From Methanooceanicella nereidis (GTDB taxonomy: Archaea; Halobacteriota; Methanocellia; Methanocellales; Methanocellaceae), in contig NZ_PGCK01000011.1 in the NCBI RefSeq assembly GCF_021023085.1, positions 1 to 64,000 on the forward strand: 64,000 nucleotides of DNA, read 5' to 3'. Each line of letters begins with the position of its first letter. The first letter of the stretch is position 1. Of the stretch, positions 17,350-62,458 are shown in pieces. The translations under genes were made by a program, and so were the position numbers. The notes under the pieces are model-generated. The model was not told where the DNA came from. It saw only the letters and a program-made list of their open reading frames with translations, and made no database searches.

Positions 17350-17504
17350 GAATACCACTTTAATCTTATCTTATTGTTTATTTAGTAATTCTCTATACTA
17401 TATAAGCATACTTTTTTTAATCTATTCCATATTAATTATTAAAGGCAATATTAAGGGCTATTTTGCTTTACAAAACTTTAATACATCTTGTTTCGCTTTA
17501 AAAA

Positions 17505-17514
17505 AGTATATATC
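17505..17514 (+). promoter_or_regulatory. TATA box of the membrane winged-helix gene
   Basis: AGTATATATC lies about 25-30 nt before ATG 17539, the spacing expected for a leaderless or nearly leaderless archaeal transcript. No ribosome site is seen before that ATG, in agreement. Confidence 0.45.
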
Positions 17515-17538
17515 TTTTTAGGCTTATTTACCAAGTAT

Positions 17539-18408
17539 ATGAGTTGCAAAAAGTTGAGGCTTACAGTAACATCGTTAGCAGTAGCCTTGCTTTTTGTAAT
17601 ATCCCTGTTCTGCGTTCCGTCTGCTCATGCGATGACCACGGTGCACGGCAATATCTACGAATGGTCGTCTTTTGATACTCTCACCAATGTTATAGTGGAA
17701 GTCAATTCAATGCCGCCTCAGACGATGGTCTCAAAGACCGGCAGCTATTCGTTTAACCTGCCAAGCGGCGATTATACCATTATCGCAAAGTGGGGCAGCC
17801 CGGGGTCTAATGCCCTTTACGCTCAGGAAAATATAACTATCACGGGCGACGGGGACTATATAATAGACCTGATACTATTCCCTGCCGGTAGCATAGATGA
17901 TCTTGATATCCTGGATGATAATATAACTGCGATAGTGCCGGATGAGCCGGTGCAGAATGACCAGAACCTTGTATTAGTGGCCGCTATGGTATTTATCATA
18001 TTCATTGTTTTAGGTTTCATCGGCTACGTATTATTCTTCAGAAAAAAACCCGCGCCTAAAAAGGAACAGATCAAAGAGATCAAACATGTAACGGACATTT
18101 TCGAAGAGCAGGTGAAGCGGGAAGATGAGGATGTTCAAATAGTATCCGAACCCCCAAAGATCCAGTTTTCGGTGGCGACACAGGCACAAAAAGAGCTTAC
18201 GCTGCCGGAAGACCTCAGGGAGATAATCCAGATCCTTGAAAAGAACGGCGGAAGGATGACGCAGCTTGACCTAAGGAAAGCCCTGCCATATTCAGAGGCC
18301 AAGGTCAGCCTGATGATAACGGATCTTGAGAACCGGGGCCTGATCAAAAAGATCAAAAAAGGTCGCGGGAACGTTATACTGTTGACCGGTATGGACAAAA
18401 ACAATTAA
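17539..18408 (+). CDS. Membrane-anchored winged-helix regulator with exported carboxypeptidase-like domain
   Basis: A 289-residue protein: signal peptide (to ...VPSAHA), an extracytoplasmic carboxypeptidase regulatory-like β-sandwich (VHGNIYEWSSFDTLTNVIVE ... GSYSFNLPSGDYTIIAKWG), a transmembrane helix near residues 150-172 (LVLVAAMVFIIFIVLGFIGY), a charged linker and a C-terminal MarR/IclR-like winged helix (ILEKNGGRMTQLDLRKALPY, SEAKVSLMITDLENRGLIKK). This architecture is frequent in methanogens and suggests direct signalling from surface to DNA. ATG 17539 fits the TATA box at 17505. The large inverted repeat at 18830 lies downstream. Confidence 0.8.
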   Translation: MSCKKLRLTVTSLAVALLFVISLFCVPSAHAMTTVHGNIYEWSSFDTLTNVIVEVNSMPPQTMVSKTGSYSFNLPSGDYTIIAKWGSPGSNALYAQENITITGDGDYIIDLILFPAGSIDDLDILDDNITAIVPDEPVQNDQNLVLVAAMVFIIFIVLGFIGYVLFFRKKPAPKKEQIKEIKHVTDIFEEQVKREDEDVQIVSEPPKIQFSVATQAQKELTLPEDLREIIQILEKNGGRMTQLDLRKALPYSEAKVSLMITDLENRGLIKKIKKGRGNVILLTGMDKNN

Positions 18409-18829
18409 TGAAAACGATAATGTAGAATGATTTTTTATGTCTATCTACGATCCAGAAGGAACAATTATATTAATTTTATATCTGCGATAAATGTTTTAGT
18501 GTATAGAAACTTTTATCGCAAGATCTTATTCTTTCCTCCTGTTTACGATAAACTTGATAGCGTCTTTTATTCTTAATCCCGTTATTTCTTTAAGGTAAAT
18601 CTCAATTCCCCTGTGATCAAACTTAACGCTAGGGCAACAATGGGACACCAATTTTTTCACCACGAAGCGCTAAAAGGGCTCGAAGGTCCATAATTTTTTT
18701 AAGGATATGATAACCTTCTTAAAATGTCATTTATGTTCCTTGTTCGCTTTTGTGTGCTCCCATGAAAAACTTTTAGATGGTTTCTTTTAAAATGGACATA
18801 TTACATCTGTTCTGTGATTGAGTTCTGGC
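18409..18829. other. Intergenic stretch with words related to the large inverted repeat
   Basis: About 420 bases with no gene. Around 18655-18690 is CACCACGAAGCGCTAAAAGG and then GCTCGAAGG. This is the same kind of short C-n-AAAG word that fills the arms of the adjacent inverted repeat, and a loosely complementary stretch lies at ~19475-19500. It may be a decayed outer part of that element. Confidence 0.4.
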
Positions 18830-19373
18830 GTTGTTCCTGTCGGATGGCAGGTAGGCACGTAACCTCACAGAAACACGGAAACACAAATTTTTTTATATGA
18901 TTTTTTAAGGTCTCTAAATCACAAAAAATGCTCACCAAATCACAAAGGCTCTAGTATCACCGTCAACGCGCTAAAGTCTCAAATGCACGGCTTAATGCTC
19001 AAAGGGCTCTAAGTCACTAACGCTAAAACAAGACCCGAACATTCTCCAAGGGCACGAAAGTTTAATTCACTGTTGACGTTTACATGATTGATATACTCTT
19101 GTTGTTGGATCCGGGGAACACAAACCGGGATATTAAACTTTCGTGTTTTGGAGAATGTTCGGGTCTTGTTTTAGCGTTAGTGACTTAGAGCAGGTTGGTG
19201 CGTTGAGCCGAGCGTTAGAGGTGTTAGAGCGTTGACGGTGATACTGGAGCCCTTTGTGGTTTGGTGAGTAAATTCTTAGTGCTTTTTGATTTCTTAAAAA
19301 ATCATATAAAAAAATTTTGTGTTTCCGTGTTTCTGTGAAATTACGTGCCTACCTGCCATCCGACAGGCACAAC
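18830..19373. repeat. Large non-coding inverted repeat, copy 1 (~544 bp)
   Basis: Left arm 18830-19066 and right arm 19132-19373 are inverted copies of each other around a 65-nt loop. The tips match nearly perfectly (TCGGATGGCAGGTAGGCACG and ACAGAAACACGGAAACAC in both arms), as does the inner block (CACTAACGCTAAAACAAG at 19015-19032 and its complement at 19165-19182, extending into ACCCGAACATTCTCCAA). The middles are more diverged but keep TAGTATCACCGTCAACGC. There is no open frame of note. It follows the membrane winged-helix gene and precedes dphB. A second family member is at 53248-53821. Confidence 0.9.
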
Positions 19374-19596
19374 CATAAAAAACATCATCTCAAAGAACGG
19401 GTAGGTACGACACGTTCTTTCATTCTTAAAACCTGAGCAAGAACCCGCTCATCAAATATTTTGTGTTGAGAGTTAGTTTTCTTTGAGCCCTTTGTTTTTA
19501 ACCAACTTGGTCATCTTGCGTCTTGTATAAAATAGTCTTTTCTATCGTTAAGATTTTATGTCATGATTTACGGATTATGTGTCAGGATTGTTCATC

Positions 19597-20355
19597 ATGC
19601 TCACATTTATCGGTCTGGGCCTCTACGACGAGGAAGACGTATCACTTAAAGGATTAAAAGCCATTCAAGAAGCAGACGTCATATATGCCGAGTTCTATAC
19701 GTCAAGGCTCATGGGCTCCAGCATAGAAAAAATGGAAGGCCTTTACGGAAAGCCTGTAAAAGTACTGGCACGAGAGGACGTAGAACAGCATCCGAAAGAA
19801 AACGTCCTTAAAGATGCCCTGGATAAAAAAGTAGTATTTTTAACAGGCGGCGATGCTATGGTCGCCACGACACACATTGACCTGCGGCTAAGGGCAAAAG
19901 AAATGGGGATAAGTACCTCAATTATACACGGGTCATCTATAGCGTCAGCCGTATGCGGATTGACTGGATTACAGAATTACAGGTTTGGAAAATCAGCTAC
20001 AATAGCGTTCCCGTATAAGAACATAGTGTCGGAAGCTCCTTATGACACTATAAAAATGAATAAGCAGAACGGGCTTCATACCATCATATTCCTCGACATA
20101 GATCGTGAAAAAGGTTACATGACCGTAAATCAGGGTGTAGAACTGCTTCTTAAGGTGGAGGAAAAAAGGATGGAGAATGTGCTCACTGACTCGTTGTGTG
20201 TAGGGATCGCACGGGCCGGTTCGAGCGACCCGTGCGTGAAAGCCGACAGGATAGACAGGCTCAAGTCATACGACTTTGGAGGGCCGCTTCACATCATGGT
20301 GATCCCTGCCGAACTTCATTTTCTTGAGGAAGAAGCTCTAAATGAATTCGCATAA
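19597..20355 (+). CDS. dphB: Diphthine synthase
   Basis: A 252-residue SAM-dependent methylase of the tetrapyrrole-methylase fold, starting MLTFIGLGLYDEEDVSLKGL. It shows the conserved FYTSRLMGSS, FLTGGDAMVATTH, IHGSSIASAVCGLTGLQNY and GIARAGSSDPCVKAD blocks. It methylates the modified histidine of elongation factor 2 on the route to diphthamide. ATG 19597 gives the standard N-terminus; the GTG at 19579 would add six residues. It stands alone between the inverted repeat and the convergent polyglutamine gene. Confidence 0.95.
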   Translation: MLTFIGLGLYDEEDVSLKGLKAIQEADVIYAEFYTSRLMGSSIEKMEGLYGKPVKVLAREDVEQHPKENVLKDALDKKVVFLTGGDAMVATTHIDLRLRAKEMGISTSIIHGSSIASAVCGLTGLQNYRFGKSATIAFPYKNIVSEAPYDTIKMNKQNGLHTIIFLDIDREKGYMTVNQGVELLLKVEEKRMENVLTDSLCVGIARAGSSDPCVKADRIDRLKSYDFGGPLHIMVIPAELHFLEEEALNEFA

Positions 20356-51878: not shown

Positions 51879-53117
51879 CTAGCACAGGATCCGGAAAGAT
51901 AATACACAATATTTTTGAGAAATATCTGCATTAATTTCAAAAATGTCGTTTAACGATCCTTCGTATAGCTTTCTCTCATCAGAATATATGACGTTTTCCG
52001 GCCTGAAGTTGAGGAGCGAATTAATATCCGTATCATAGAATTTACCGGCGTCAATCCTTAATGAACGATATGTTTCATGTTTACCCGGATCCATGGATAT
52101 TTTTGATATATGGGAGCTTCCGAATGGAAGGACGATGGTAAGATCGATATTTTTATCGTTCTTTTCTAACTTTATTTCAACGGATAAGTGATACCAGCCA
52201 TTCGCTTCAATATCCCATTCGATGAGGGCGCCTTTACCGCCGCAATATGTATAGCTATTAAATTCCGGCATCGCCTGCGGTCCGCTGCGATGGTATGATC
52301 CCGGCTCATAAATATTCCCGTTGAAGTAAGCTGATGATGAACTGACAGGTGTCTCCTCTTCATTAACCACACTAAGGTCTGTTACTTCTTCTGCGACAGC
52401 CTGGGGGAATAATAAGAACAGGCAGGGAAATATCCTGTATAACGAGCCATATTTTGTCACAGAGTCCATCTGCCATTTTTTCCGGATATCCGCCAGATCG
52501 TTTTTCAGTCCGGGAAAACCTATGACCATATCGATCTTCAGAGTATCCGGCGATAAGACCTTTAGATTAATGTTCCTTATGACCGCGGATATATCAGCCG
52601 ATAGTTCCGGCAGGTATATTTCATCGTAATCCGCTGCCAGATAATTCATGTCAGGGAAACGATTTTTCGACCGTTCTATCTTATCGTATTGCTGCAACAG
52701 TTTAAAAGCGATATCGTTCTCTTTTAAGGCGATCGCCAGCTCAAAAGCATCTTCGATACATTCTATTGCTGCTTCATGCTCGCATAAGCACCTGTACGCC
52801 TCAGACAGTCCTGTCAACGTACCCAGAATATTGTCATTATTATCAAGATTAGACTTTATCTTAAGAGACTCCAGGAATGCGTTCGCCGCATCTTCATATT
52901 TGTTAAGAAGAATGCTCACGAAACCGATATTATTTAATATGCCTGCAATTGCATTATCCCATGACCCGTCCTTATTTTGCTCACAAAAGGCCGATAATGC
53001 GATGTCAAGCTCTTCAAGTGCTTCGGCATAGTAGCCTTTTTCAGATAACCTCTTTGCTTTTTCACCATGAGAGAGCCCTATCTGAATGAGCCTTGTCATC
53101 TTTTTCCGCGCAGACAT
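51879..53117 (-). CDS. TPR-containing protein with C-terminal β-rich domain
   Basis: A 412-residue protein. The first ~155 residues are tetratricopeptide-like (EKGYYAEALEELDIALSAF, LLNKYEDAANAFLESLKIKS, LCEHEAAIECIEDAFELAIA). The remainder is β-rich without known domain (YFNGNIYEPGSYHRSGPQAM, INLKVLSPDTLKIDMVIGFP). No signal peptide. A TATA-like TTATAAC lies just upstream of ATG 53117, suggesting a leaderless transcript. The large inverted repeat copy 2 lies directly upstream. Role unknown. Confidence 0.7.
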   Translation of the reverse strand: MSARKKMTRLIQIGLSHGEKAKRLSEKGYYAEALEELDIALSAFCEQNKDGSWDNAIAGILNNIGFVSILLNKYEDAANAFLESLKIKSNLDNNDNILGTLTGLSEAYRCLCEHEAAIECIEDAFELAIALKENDIAFKLLQQYDKIERSKNRFPDMNYLAADYDEIYLPELSADISAVIRNINLKVLSPDTLKIDMVIGFPGLKNDLADIRKKWQMDSVTKYGSLYRIFPCLFLLFPQAVAEEVTDLSVVNEEETPVSSSSAYFNGNIYEPGSYHRSGPQAMPEFNSYTYCGGKGALIEWDIEANGWYHLSVEIKLEKNDKNIDLTIVLPFGSSHISKISMDPGKHETYRSLRIDAGKFYDTDINSLLNFRPENVIYSDERKLYEGSLNDIFEINADISQKYCVLSFRILC

Positions 53118-53247
53118 CCATTAAATGTAAGTATAAGATGTTATAAAACCATCGGAGATTCACCTTATGGTTATTTAAGATATGTTCGGGTTTTTATGGT
53201 ATCTTTAATAAACCGTATAAAAAATGGTTCTTCTCCGAACTTTGAGG

Positions 53248-53821
53248 GTGATGTTTTTTGTGTTGTTCTTTTCGGATGGCAGGTAGATACGAACCTCACG
53301 AAAACATAGAAACACTAAATTTTTTTTAGAATTTTAAGTTCTCAAAGTCACCAAAAGTTTACTCACTAAAACTCTAAGTCTCTAGCAGTACAGTCAATGC
53401 ATAAACGTCCCAAACTCTCTACTCAATGCTCAAAATGCGCAAAGACACTAACGCTAAAACAAGCCCCGAGCATCTCCAAACCACTAACGTTTAATCGCCC
53501 TGTTTACGTTTAACACGACTAATACATATCTGATATAAGATGATCAATTAGGCGCAACACAAACTGTGCTATTGAACTTTCGTGCTTTGGGGAGGTTCGG
53601 GGTTTGTTTTAGCGTTAGTGAATTGGAGAACTTTGTGCGTTGAGTTGAGCGTTTGAGAAGTTTGAGCGCTGACGGTGATACTAGAGCCTTAGAGGTTTAG
53701 TTAGTTAATCTTTAGAGCTTTCGTGCCCTTAAAAATCATATAAAAATTTTTTTGTGTTTCTGTGTTTTCGTGAGGTTCGTATCTACCTGCCATCCGAAAA
53801 GAACAACACAAAAAACATCAC
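53248..53821. repeat. Large non-coding inverted repeat, copy 2 (~574 bp)
   Basis: Arms 53248-53495 and 53571-53821 are inverted copies around a ~75-nt loop. The outermost 60 bases match almost perfectly (GTGATGTTTTTTGTGTTGTT, then TCGGATGGCAGGTAGATACG and AACCTCACGAAAACA in both arms). CACTAACGCTAAAACAA occurs in both inner arms. Same family as 18830-19373, but the tip sequence differs between copies (GTAGATACG here, GTAGGCACG there) while both arms within each copy agree. No gene inside. It starts 28 bases after the cysS stop and lies upstream of the TPR gene. Confidence 0.92.
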
Positions 53822-53848
53822 ACAAAAAAAGCCGATGAACTGAAAAAA

Positions 53849-55276
53849 TTAACTTTCTATTCGTTTGATCTTTACGCCCTCTTTGCTGTCCTCGAGTAAA
53901 ATGCCAAGTTCCTTTAACCTGTTTCTGATCAGATCAGAGGTCTCGAAATCTTTTTTCTTCCGGACCTCCTCGCGAATATCCACTATGAGTTTTAAAAGCT
54001 CTGTAGTCATAACGTCCTCGCTTACCACTGTCCATCTAATGCCAAGGATCTCAGAGTACGTAGTATACAGGTCTTTTATTTTCTCCCATCTTTCAACGGG
54101 CATATCACCGGAGGATAGCCAGCGATTAACGTCCCTCGTAAAATCGAACATCTCGGCTATAGCTTCGCGGGTATTAAAGTTATCATTCATTGCCGATTCA
54201 AACTTTTCCAGGCTTTCTTTAAGCCTCCCCGAAACTTCATCAGCGCTTATCAATGCCATTTCCGGCCGTGGTTTAGCTATCCTGTTATCGATCTCCGAAA
54301 GCGTGTTCTGTATCCTGTACAGGCTTCTTTTAGCTTCTTCGAGCCCCATATCACTGAAATCAAGAGGGCTCTGGTAATGCGTAAAAAGAACAAAAAACCT
54401 GATCGTCTCAGGCGAAAACTTATTTAGCACTTCTTTGATCGTGAAAAAGTTGCCCAGTGACTTAGACATTTTTTCTTTATTTATCGTTAAAAAACCGTTA
54501 TGTATCCAGTATTTTGCGAACGGCGGCTTATTAGTATAGGCTTCGGACTGCATTATCTCAGACTCATGATGCGGGAATATGAGGTCCATACCTCCGCCAT
54601 GTATGTCGATCTTTTCGCCCAGCAGCTTAATGGCCATAGCAGAACATTCAATGTGCCATCCGGGCCTTCCCTTACCCCACGGGCTATCCCAGGCTATCAT
54701 CTCTCCGGGTTTTGATGCTTTCCAGAGCACGAAATCCATAGGGTTTCTTTTACGCTCGTCCACTTCAAGCCTTGCTCCGACTTTTAGTGCATCGTACGAT
54801 TGATGCGATAAGACCCCTATCTCGCTTTTCATGCTGTCTATGCTGAAATAAACACTGCCATCCGATACATAGGCGTTCCCGTGATCTATCAGCTTCTCTA
54901 TCATCTTTATTATCTCGCCGATATGATCGCTAACCTTCGGATGTTGATCCGCCCTCATCACGTTTAGCTTATCCATATCTTCAAAATATGCCTGTATGAA
55001 TTTTTTTGAAAGATTAAGAGGATCGGCACCCAGTTCATTCGCCCTTTTGATTATCTTATCGTCGATGTCAGTAAAATTCTGGACATATATGACATTGTAG
55101 CCTTTATGCTTCAGGTATCTTCTTATTACGTCAAAAACGATATATGAGCGGGCATGACCCATATGACAGTTATCGTAAACGGTCGGTCCGCAAACATACA
55201 TCTTTACGTTCTTACCATCTAATGGCACGAATTCCTCAACGCTTGAAGTCAGCGTGTTATAAAATCTCAAGGCCAT
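53849..55276 (-). CDS. cysS: Cysteinyl-tRNA synthetase
   Basis: A 475-residue class I synthetase: VCGPTVYDNCHMGHARSYIV (HIGH box), FTDIDDKIIKRANELG, GRPGWHIECSAMA with Cys/His zinc ligands, IDIHGGGMDLIFPHHESEI, KMSKSLGNF, and a helical anticodon-binding tail. It charges tRNA-Cys. GGTGA before ATG 55276 supports this start over 55285. Its transcript runs toward the inverted repeat copy 2, which begins 28 bases after the stop. The tRNA-Cys gene is at 60277. Confidence 0.97.
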   Translation of the reverse strand: MALRFYNTLTSSVEEFVPLDGKNVKMYVCGPTVYDNCHMGHARSYIVFDVIRRYLKHKGYNVIYVQNFTDIDDKIIKRANELGADPLNLSKKFIQAYFEDMDKLNVMRADQHPKVSDHIGEIIKMIEKLIDHGNAYVSDGSVYFSIDSMKSEIGVLSHQSYDALKVGARLEVDERKRNPMDFVLWKASKPGEMIAWDSPWGKGRPGWHIECSAMAIKLLGEKIDIHGGGMDLIFPHHESEIMQSEAYTNKPPFAKYWIHNGFLTINKEKMSKSLGNFFTIKEVLNKFSPETIRFFVLFTHYQSPLDFSDMGLEEAKRSLYRIQNTLSEIDNRIAKPRPEMALISADEVSGRLKESLEKFESAMNDNFNTREAIAEMFDFTRDVNRWLSSGDMPVERWEKIKDLYTTYSEILGIRWTVVSEDVMTTELLKLIVDIREEVRKKKDFETSDLIRNRLKELGILLEDSKEGVKIKRIES

Positions 55277-55508
55277 TTTATTCACCGGTTCGATTAAACT
55301 TTACAAGTTATTATTTATAACAACATAAATTTATAGTCACCCATTTTTGTCAATGACATCAAAGTGGCGATACCATTATTACAGCAGGTTCAAAGATCCT
55401 CGGTTTTTTGGTGATATATACAATAGTGACTCTAAATATTTGATCTAAATGTTGGACTTTAATATGGTTTTTAGTTCGCTAAACAGGAATGATATCTTAT
55501 TGATCTAA

Positions 55509-61673: not shown

Positions 61674-62324
61674 ATGACGATAGTTCCTGATTCAAGACTT
61701 ATCATCGCCCTGGACGTCACAGACAGAGAAGAAGCGCTTCAGATCTCCAGGAAAATAGGCGGTCTCGTCGATGCGATAAAAGTAAATTACCCATTGATAT
61801 TATCCTGCGGCCTCGGCATCGTGCCGGAGATCAAAAAATATGCGAATGTCATAGCAGACTTTAAAGTGGCTGATATCCCTAACACGAACCGGCTCATATG
61901 CGAGGAGACTTTCAAGGCCGGCGCCGATGCCATCATATGCCAGGGCTTTGTAGGGAACGATAGTGTTAAAGCGTGTGTCGATGTTGCGGCACAATTCGGC
62001 AAGGAAGTATATGTTGTGACCGAGATGAGCCATCCCGGCGCTATTGATTTTATACAAAAGCATGCTATGGATCTTGTGGACGTCGCGATAAAAAACGGGG
62101 CGTCAGGCATAATTGCGCCCGCGACCAGGCCTGAGAGGTTATCCGAGATAAAAAGGAGATCAAAGGACTTAAAGATACTTTCTCCGGGAGTCGGTGCACA
62201 GGGGGGCGATGCCCGTACCACTTTAGACGCAGGGGCCGATTTTATCATAGTGGGAAGAAGTATATATAATGCAAAAGACCCATATCAAGCAGCGATAGAC
62301 CTGATAGGACAACTGCGCCGATGA
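61674..62324 (+). CDS. pyrF: Orotidine-5'-phosphate decarboxylase
   Basis: A 216-residue TIM-barrel enzyme with LIIALDVTDREEALQISRKI, the catalytic D-x-K-x2-D motif in DFKVADIPNTNRLICEETF, TEMSHPGAIDFI, and GAQGGDARTTLDAGADFIIV with GRSIY for phosphate binding. It makes UMP, the last step of pyrimidine synthesis. ATG 61674 gives the normal length. It stands alone after the sppA terminator. Confidence 0.97.
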   Translation: MTIVPDSRLIIALDVTDREEALQISRKIGGLVDAIKVNYPLILSCGLGIVPEIKKYANVIADFKVADIPNTNRLICEETFKAGADAIICQGFVGNDSVKACVDVAAQFGKEVYVVTEMSHPGAIDFIQKHAMDLVDVAIKNGASGIIAPATRPERLSEIKRRSKDLKILSPGVGAQGGDARTTLDAGADFIIVGRSIYNAKDPYQAAIDLIGQLRR

Positions 62325-62458
62325 TGACAAAAATATCCTGATCAATGATGATCCCTATGAGTACTGAGGCTATGCAGTTTCATTAATACTGTCAGTACTT
62401 TGATCGTTATCGGCCGGATCAAATATTTTTTTTATTTTTCCATACCGTCGGATAGTCA

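Follow-up and report, generated by a model that had tools for sequence, protein, structure and literature searches.

INTRODUCTION

Among the described prokaryotic systems, the 23S rRNA IVSs, hairpins that carry an ORF in their loop, come closest to the sequences analysed here. The IVS of Coxiella has a 28-bp terminal stem; its mobility has been proposed, not shown, and the origin of such a hairpin with a loop ORF was left open (PMC4990558). Prokaryotic MITEs are short, multi-copy, non-coding sequences with terminal inverted repeats that are derived from a longer coding element (PMC10969869), and in the REPIN/RAYT system many gene-less extragenic hairpins coexist with a few copies that have an enzyme gene beside the same repeats (PMC3116915). 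In one of the papers that name it, the protein family GxxExxY (TIGR04256, PF13366) appears only as a gene beside a reverse transcriptase. In the mostly open-access literature that we searched, we found no description of a link between this family and inverted ladder repeats.

Here we analyse two long palindromes in a 64,000-nt stretch of the genome of the archaeon Methanooceanicella nereidis (NZ_PGCK01000011.1, positions 1 to 64,000; hereafter the window), which resemble each of these systems in part. Like the 23S rRNA IVSs, their family has hairpins with terminal inverted repeats whose loop can hold an ORF, in a transcribed location from which removal would be harmless. However, the present elements are intergenic whereas the IVS sits in an rRNA gene; their loop ORF is a clear member of GxxExxY, predicted to be of the PD-(D/E)XK type, whereas that of the IVS is an S23/four-helix ORF; and their arms are ~250 bp long, built from ladders of 8–10 nt, and occur in ~70 gene-less copies. 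Unlike MITEs, they show no transposase of a known class among the tip matches listed and no clear target-site duplication, and they consist nearly entirely of inverted repeat. Unlike REPINs, which are short REP units served by a tyrosine transposase (RAYT), they have long arms and an enzyme of the predicted PD-(D/E)XK type. REPINs and MITEs are functional analogues, and in the features compared the present family does not fully fit either class.

RESULTS

Two palindromes at the 3' ends of genes

The window contains two non-coding palindromes of ~550–620 bp, both far beyond chance expectation. Element A spans approximately positions 53226–53842, with the outer ends GGTTCTTC...GATGAACT, and is thus slightly wider than the stretch 53248–53821 of the original prediction; its ends were placed by means of other copies of the same subtype (type II, see below) and of deletion derivatives. 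The left arm (53254–53505, forward strand) is built as a ladder from near-repeats of ~8 nt (p=0.018 for a lag-8 autocorrelation of 0.36), and the inverted right arm (53556–53815, reverse strand) follows after a non-coding loop (53506–53555), at the position where three other copies carry a GxxExxY gene. Near the outer ends lie the tips (53274–53299, GGATGGCAGGTAGATACGAACCTCAC, forward; 53770–53795, reverse), segments in which variants match between the two arms of one copy. Element B, a type I copy, occupies 18830–19382 (arms 18830–19075 and 19116–19382, loop 19076–19115; lag-8 autocorrelation 0.40, p<0.001) and is carried by an outer unit of up to ~870 bp, whose P flank (18641–18841) and K flank (19362–19466) recur beside other type I copies. 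The loops are indeed short, as had been expected (~50 nt in A, ~40 nt in B). Over ~300 aligned columns the two arms are identical at 0.755 (A) and 0.807 (B) of the positions, and copy A folds with -286 kcal/mol, compared to -140 ± 6 kcal/mol for shuffled sequences (z = -22.9).

Each element lies 3' of a gene that points at it, as predicted. For A this is cysS (53849–55285, reverse strand; TIGR00435, 553.9 bits), whose stop codon at 53849 is ~7 nt from the element's end; on the other side, a 412-aa ORF without NCBIfam match (51879–53117, reverse strand) turns its 5' end toward the element. Element B is approached by a 306-aa ORF with weak HTH-type matches (17488–18408, forward strand) and faces the 5' end of dph5, encoding diphthine synthase (19579–20355, forward strand). 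At the Rfam gathering score the window yields tRNAs and the C/D-box RNA sR41 (62317–62369) only, and the palindromes have no match.

A dispersed family of about 73 copies

Searching the whole 3.19 Mb genome, we found 71 paired copies, whose loops measure 38–62 nt with few exceptions, and at least two more full copies (about 73 in total), besides several that are truncated or cut by a contig edge. The prediction of a large intergenic inverted-repeat family, often situated 3' of genes, is borne out. Nineteen copies, A included, form type II, which ends ~48 bp past the tip in sequences like GGTTCTTC; ~48 copies, B included, form type I and lie inside the larger unit mentioned above, the ends of which are themselves a CACAAAG/CTTTGTG ladder, so that one hairpin is nested within another. 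The nearest copies are up to 99.1% identical and occupy different sites with differing outer flanks, which points to dispersal of the family. Both window copies are intergenic, and the other copies lie between predicted ORFs, the neighbouring genes being mechanical, uncurated ORF calls. Often the hairpin follows closely on a stop codon. Type II tips are a median of 54 bp away from 3'-facing genes versus 181 bp from 5'-facing ones, and the spacers that hold type I copies are convergent in 22, tandem in 19 and divergent in 4 cases (window spacers: 5, 23 and 10).

One locus (C15:38058–38272) has the outer unit with both flanks but without the hairpin. It was considered as a pre-insertion (empty) site and rejected, as part of the tip is retained and the junction GTTGTGCCTG-CCATCCGACAAGCACAAC reads as a deletion between CCTG repeats. 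At C3:123242–123427 and two further loci the hairpin is truncated or has lost internal sequence, while at least one of its outer ends is retained. Copy A is flanked by AAAAAAT on both sides; this lies in an A/T-rich context and is not general among the copies, and no convincing target-site duplication was found across them. The family is absent from the sister genomes G001 and G003, which have no gene-less hairpins of this kind. The third sister genome, G002, has ~40 gene-less hairpins of its own (~520 bp) with only patchy similarity to the present family.

Within-copy matching is strongest at the tip

According to the original prediction, sequence variants are shared by the two arms of one copy and differ between copies, as would result if pairing constrained the sequence, or if one arm homogenised the other, over their ~240 nt. 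The tip variants on which this was based had been read correctly. We aligned both arms of 67 copies and shuffled the partners 2,000 times. Over the whole arm, identity is 0.82 within copies, 0.831 between copies on the same side and 0.816 between copies across sides; arms of unrelated copies are thus as alike as the two arms of one copy, an outcome that the original prediction had named as refuting it. In fact, the true partner of a left arm ranks 34th of 67 in the median, and in type I the own arms match slightly more poorly than random ones. The tip (columns 26–52) behaves differently: in type I the within-copy identity is 0.938 where 0.911 would be expected, and in type II it is 0.928 where 0.851 would be (p≤0.0005 for both). 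This 26-column segment alone shows an excess at that level in both subtypes; in type II a weaker excess is also seen in the outer 26 and the middle columns. Both variable bases of GTAG[AG][CT]AC, together with the one that follows AC, give rise to the tip signal, and counting G-U pairs leaves the outcome of the arm matching unchanged. Apart from the weak excess in type II, re-paired arms match about equally well outside the ~26-bp outer tip, and covariation along entire arms is rejected by the permutation. As the strongest within-copy matching is found there, the tip would be the likeliest recognition or end-pairing site.

Three copies carry a GxxExxY gene

Three copies have loops of more than 500 nt, and each of these contains a GxxExxY gene: an intact one of ~134 aa (C5:178609–179654), a frameshifted one (C2:45432–46459) and a decayed one (C5:170981–172032). 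A coding form of the family thus exists, a finding that the original prediction had named as speaking against it, and the remaining copies look like gene-less derivatives of the gene-bearing element. The intact ORF scores 123.7 bits with TIGR04256 (curated cut-off 35) and 118.6 bits with PF13366. It has the GxxExxY motif and the D..ExK nuclease residues, with G34, E37, Y40, D78, E88 and K90 invariant in the alignment. No relatives in the PDB were found by sequence. The best PDB matches of the predicted structure (pLDDT 94) are SSO0001 (4ic1), a Cas4-like protein, and lambda exonuclease; Foldseek gives E-values of 1e-3 at best and a poor rmsd, so the assignment is limited to the broad superfamily. 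The loop protein is predicted to be a PD-(D/E)XK nuclease whose fold resembles those of Cas4 and lambda exonuclease. GxxExxY is a small gene for an uncharacterised putative nuclease from a common orphan protein family.

Inverted ladder repeats surround GxxExxY genes in other genomes

GxxExxY genes above the cut-off occur in the genomes G000–G003 of the same archaeal family and in none of 37 other genomes searched from the phylum. For bacteria, one scan of genome contigs gave 16 loci from several phyla, the host genomes of which contributed ~60 genes. We scored the best inverted repeat between the 500-bp flanks, with a threshold of 34 corresponding to the 99th percentile of swapped flanks. Flanking inverted repeats were found for 13 of 15 GxxExxY genes of the archaeal family and for 37 of 55 bacterial ones from 16 genomes, compared to 8/231 mechanical ORFs at the same loci, 0/54 ORFs of the window and 0/26 PIN-domain genes. 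The Fisher values for the bacterial genes (3.5e-25 against mechanical ORFs and 9.8e-10 against PIN genes) overstate the evidence because paralogues, which are not independent, were counted; the count per genome is free of this problem, and all 16 bacterial genomes have at least one GxxExxY gene flanked by an inverted repeat. When the upstream flank was cut more strictly, 24/65 genes passed, as many arms extend close to the start codon. The association of GxxExxY genes with inverted ladder repeats is well supported. In this sample, the strongest bacterial case is a gene from Spirosoma (G042:C8) with an inverted repeat of 186 bp and 84% identity.

Across phyla the arms are ladders of near-repeats, e.g. 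AACCACAGAGGGCACAGAGATCACAGAG or ACCGCGGAGGACGCGGAGG. Periodicity is significant (p<0.05) in 14/37 bacterial and 8/13 archaeal GxxExxY cases, mostly with periods of 8–10 nt (8 nt in window copies A and B). The same inverted-ladder layout surrounds four-helix genes of TIGR02436, which is presumably the family of the 23S rRNA IVS ORF: 15 of 25 such genes in bacteria lie between inverted ladder repeats, and 12/16 of their arms are periodic, with significant periods of 7 (or 14) nt and units like AAGTCGG or AGTTCGG. The distinct ladder periods of the two families suggest a match between protein and arm. TIGR02436 has no match in the genome of the present elements. As to genomic placement, bacterial GxxExxY genes have a co-directional ORF upstream in 42/51 cases and downstream in 41/51; for PIN genes the figures are 12/19 and 7/19. 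In Sphingomonas parapaucimobilis (NZ_CP155749.1) the GxxExxY gene lies between fabD and fabG, in a fatty-acid gene cluster.

Carriers and transposases

By tblastn, none of 50,697 phage records contained a GxxExxY relative, and among 72,556 plasmid records six did, and a scan of viral contigs for such relatives was likewise negative; a lone 18-mer match in a viral contig proved to be a chance match within a gene. The plasmids gave no direct presence/absence pairs. Neither plasmids nor phages are the main carriers. The tip matches listed cover 100 places; those examined that lie outside complete hairpins belong to truncated, internally deleted or divergent copies, and no transposase was found at them. 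A conventional transposase acting at the tips was accordingly dropped as a candidate, remnants being all that was seen among these matches. They likewise include no autonomous partner that encodes a transposase and has the same ends; the partners found bear GxxExxY only.

DISCUSSION

The palindromes are probably gene-less copies of an IVS- and MITE-like hairpin element that is mobilised by, or depends on, the GxxExxY nuclease. Its complete form would be a ~250-bp ladder arm, the GxxExxY gene and the inverted ladder arm. The protein may recognise the arm ladder or the tip in a folded strand and cut there, and the cut would lead to the element being spread or fixed. If GxxExxY indeed recognises and cuts arms or tip, copies without the gene could have moved in trans, like MITEs. 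Insertion past a stop codon would be harmless to the host, and once the transcript folds the element, the hairpin could be cut out as with 23S rRNA IVSs. Several observations count against mobilisation by GxxExxY: a clean pre-insertion site was not found in the genome, the C15 locus being the sole candidate; no convincing target-site duplication was seen; the gene-less hairpins of G002 have no detectable similarity to the gene-bearing elements of that genome; and for a third of the bacterial GxxExxY genes an inverted repeat is not detectable.

Several properties would fit ordinary MITEs, moved via their tips by a conventional transposase located elsewhere, with GxxExxY a passenger in three copies: terminal inverted repeats, numerous copies, non-coding bodies and a matching between the ends that centres on the tip. 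We consider such an origin unlikely, given that the off-hairpin tips examined enclose no transposase among the matches listed and are remnants or divergent copies, that a clear target-site duplication is not seen, and that a passenger role leaves the arms around GxxExxY genes in 16/16 bacterial genomes unexplained. The occurrence of two unrelated small protein families in the same kind of loop, and of tandemly expanded arms in two further GxxExxY elements, could instead mean that ladder hairpins propagate by themselves or arise by slippage and that GxxExxY and four-helix genes are cargo, captured repeatedly between the arms and playing no part in mobility. This is rather improbable, as an arbitrary small accessory family does not show the layout (PIN, 0/26) and as each family has a distinct period (8–10 nt versus 7 nt). 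The view from which the analysis started, a hairpin in RNA (or a cruciform) that is constrained by pairing and acts in mRNA 3' ends such as that of cysS, has the position 3' of genes, the very stable fold and the covariation of the tip in its favour. With little or no within-copy pairing excess over most of the arm length, whether or not G-U pairs are counted, the family absent from two of the sister genomes, gene-bearing relatives in existence and no Rfam match, we regard it as highly improbable; for the arms it is largely refuted.

Mobilisation by the GxxExxY nuclease thus being the reading we prefer, a more general one can be offered tentatively. GxxExxY or four-helix, IVS-type proteins, each specific to its own ladder arms (8–10 or 7 nt), could define a class of hairpin mobile elements that spans phyla and has so far gone unrecognised; the proteins would mobilise these elements without a known transposase, and the elements would insert into transcribed spacers and seed gene-less palindromes. 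If true, this would provide a context and a direct test for the orphan family GxxExxY, for the ladder repeats beside GxxExxY genes in many genomes, and for the origin and spread of hairpins with ORFs like those of 23S rRNA IVSs. Finally, two further GxxExxY genes of the M. nereidis genome have arms made up of in-phase tandem repeats, with a 40-nt unit in 7.9 and 4.9 copies in the C12:110745 region and a 43-nt unit in 4.3 and 3.5 copies in the C2:41073 region; in both regions, unit length and phase are equal in the two arms despite ~15–20% divergence.
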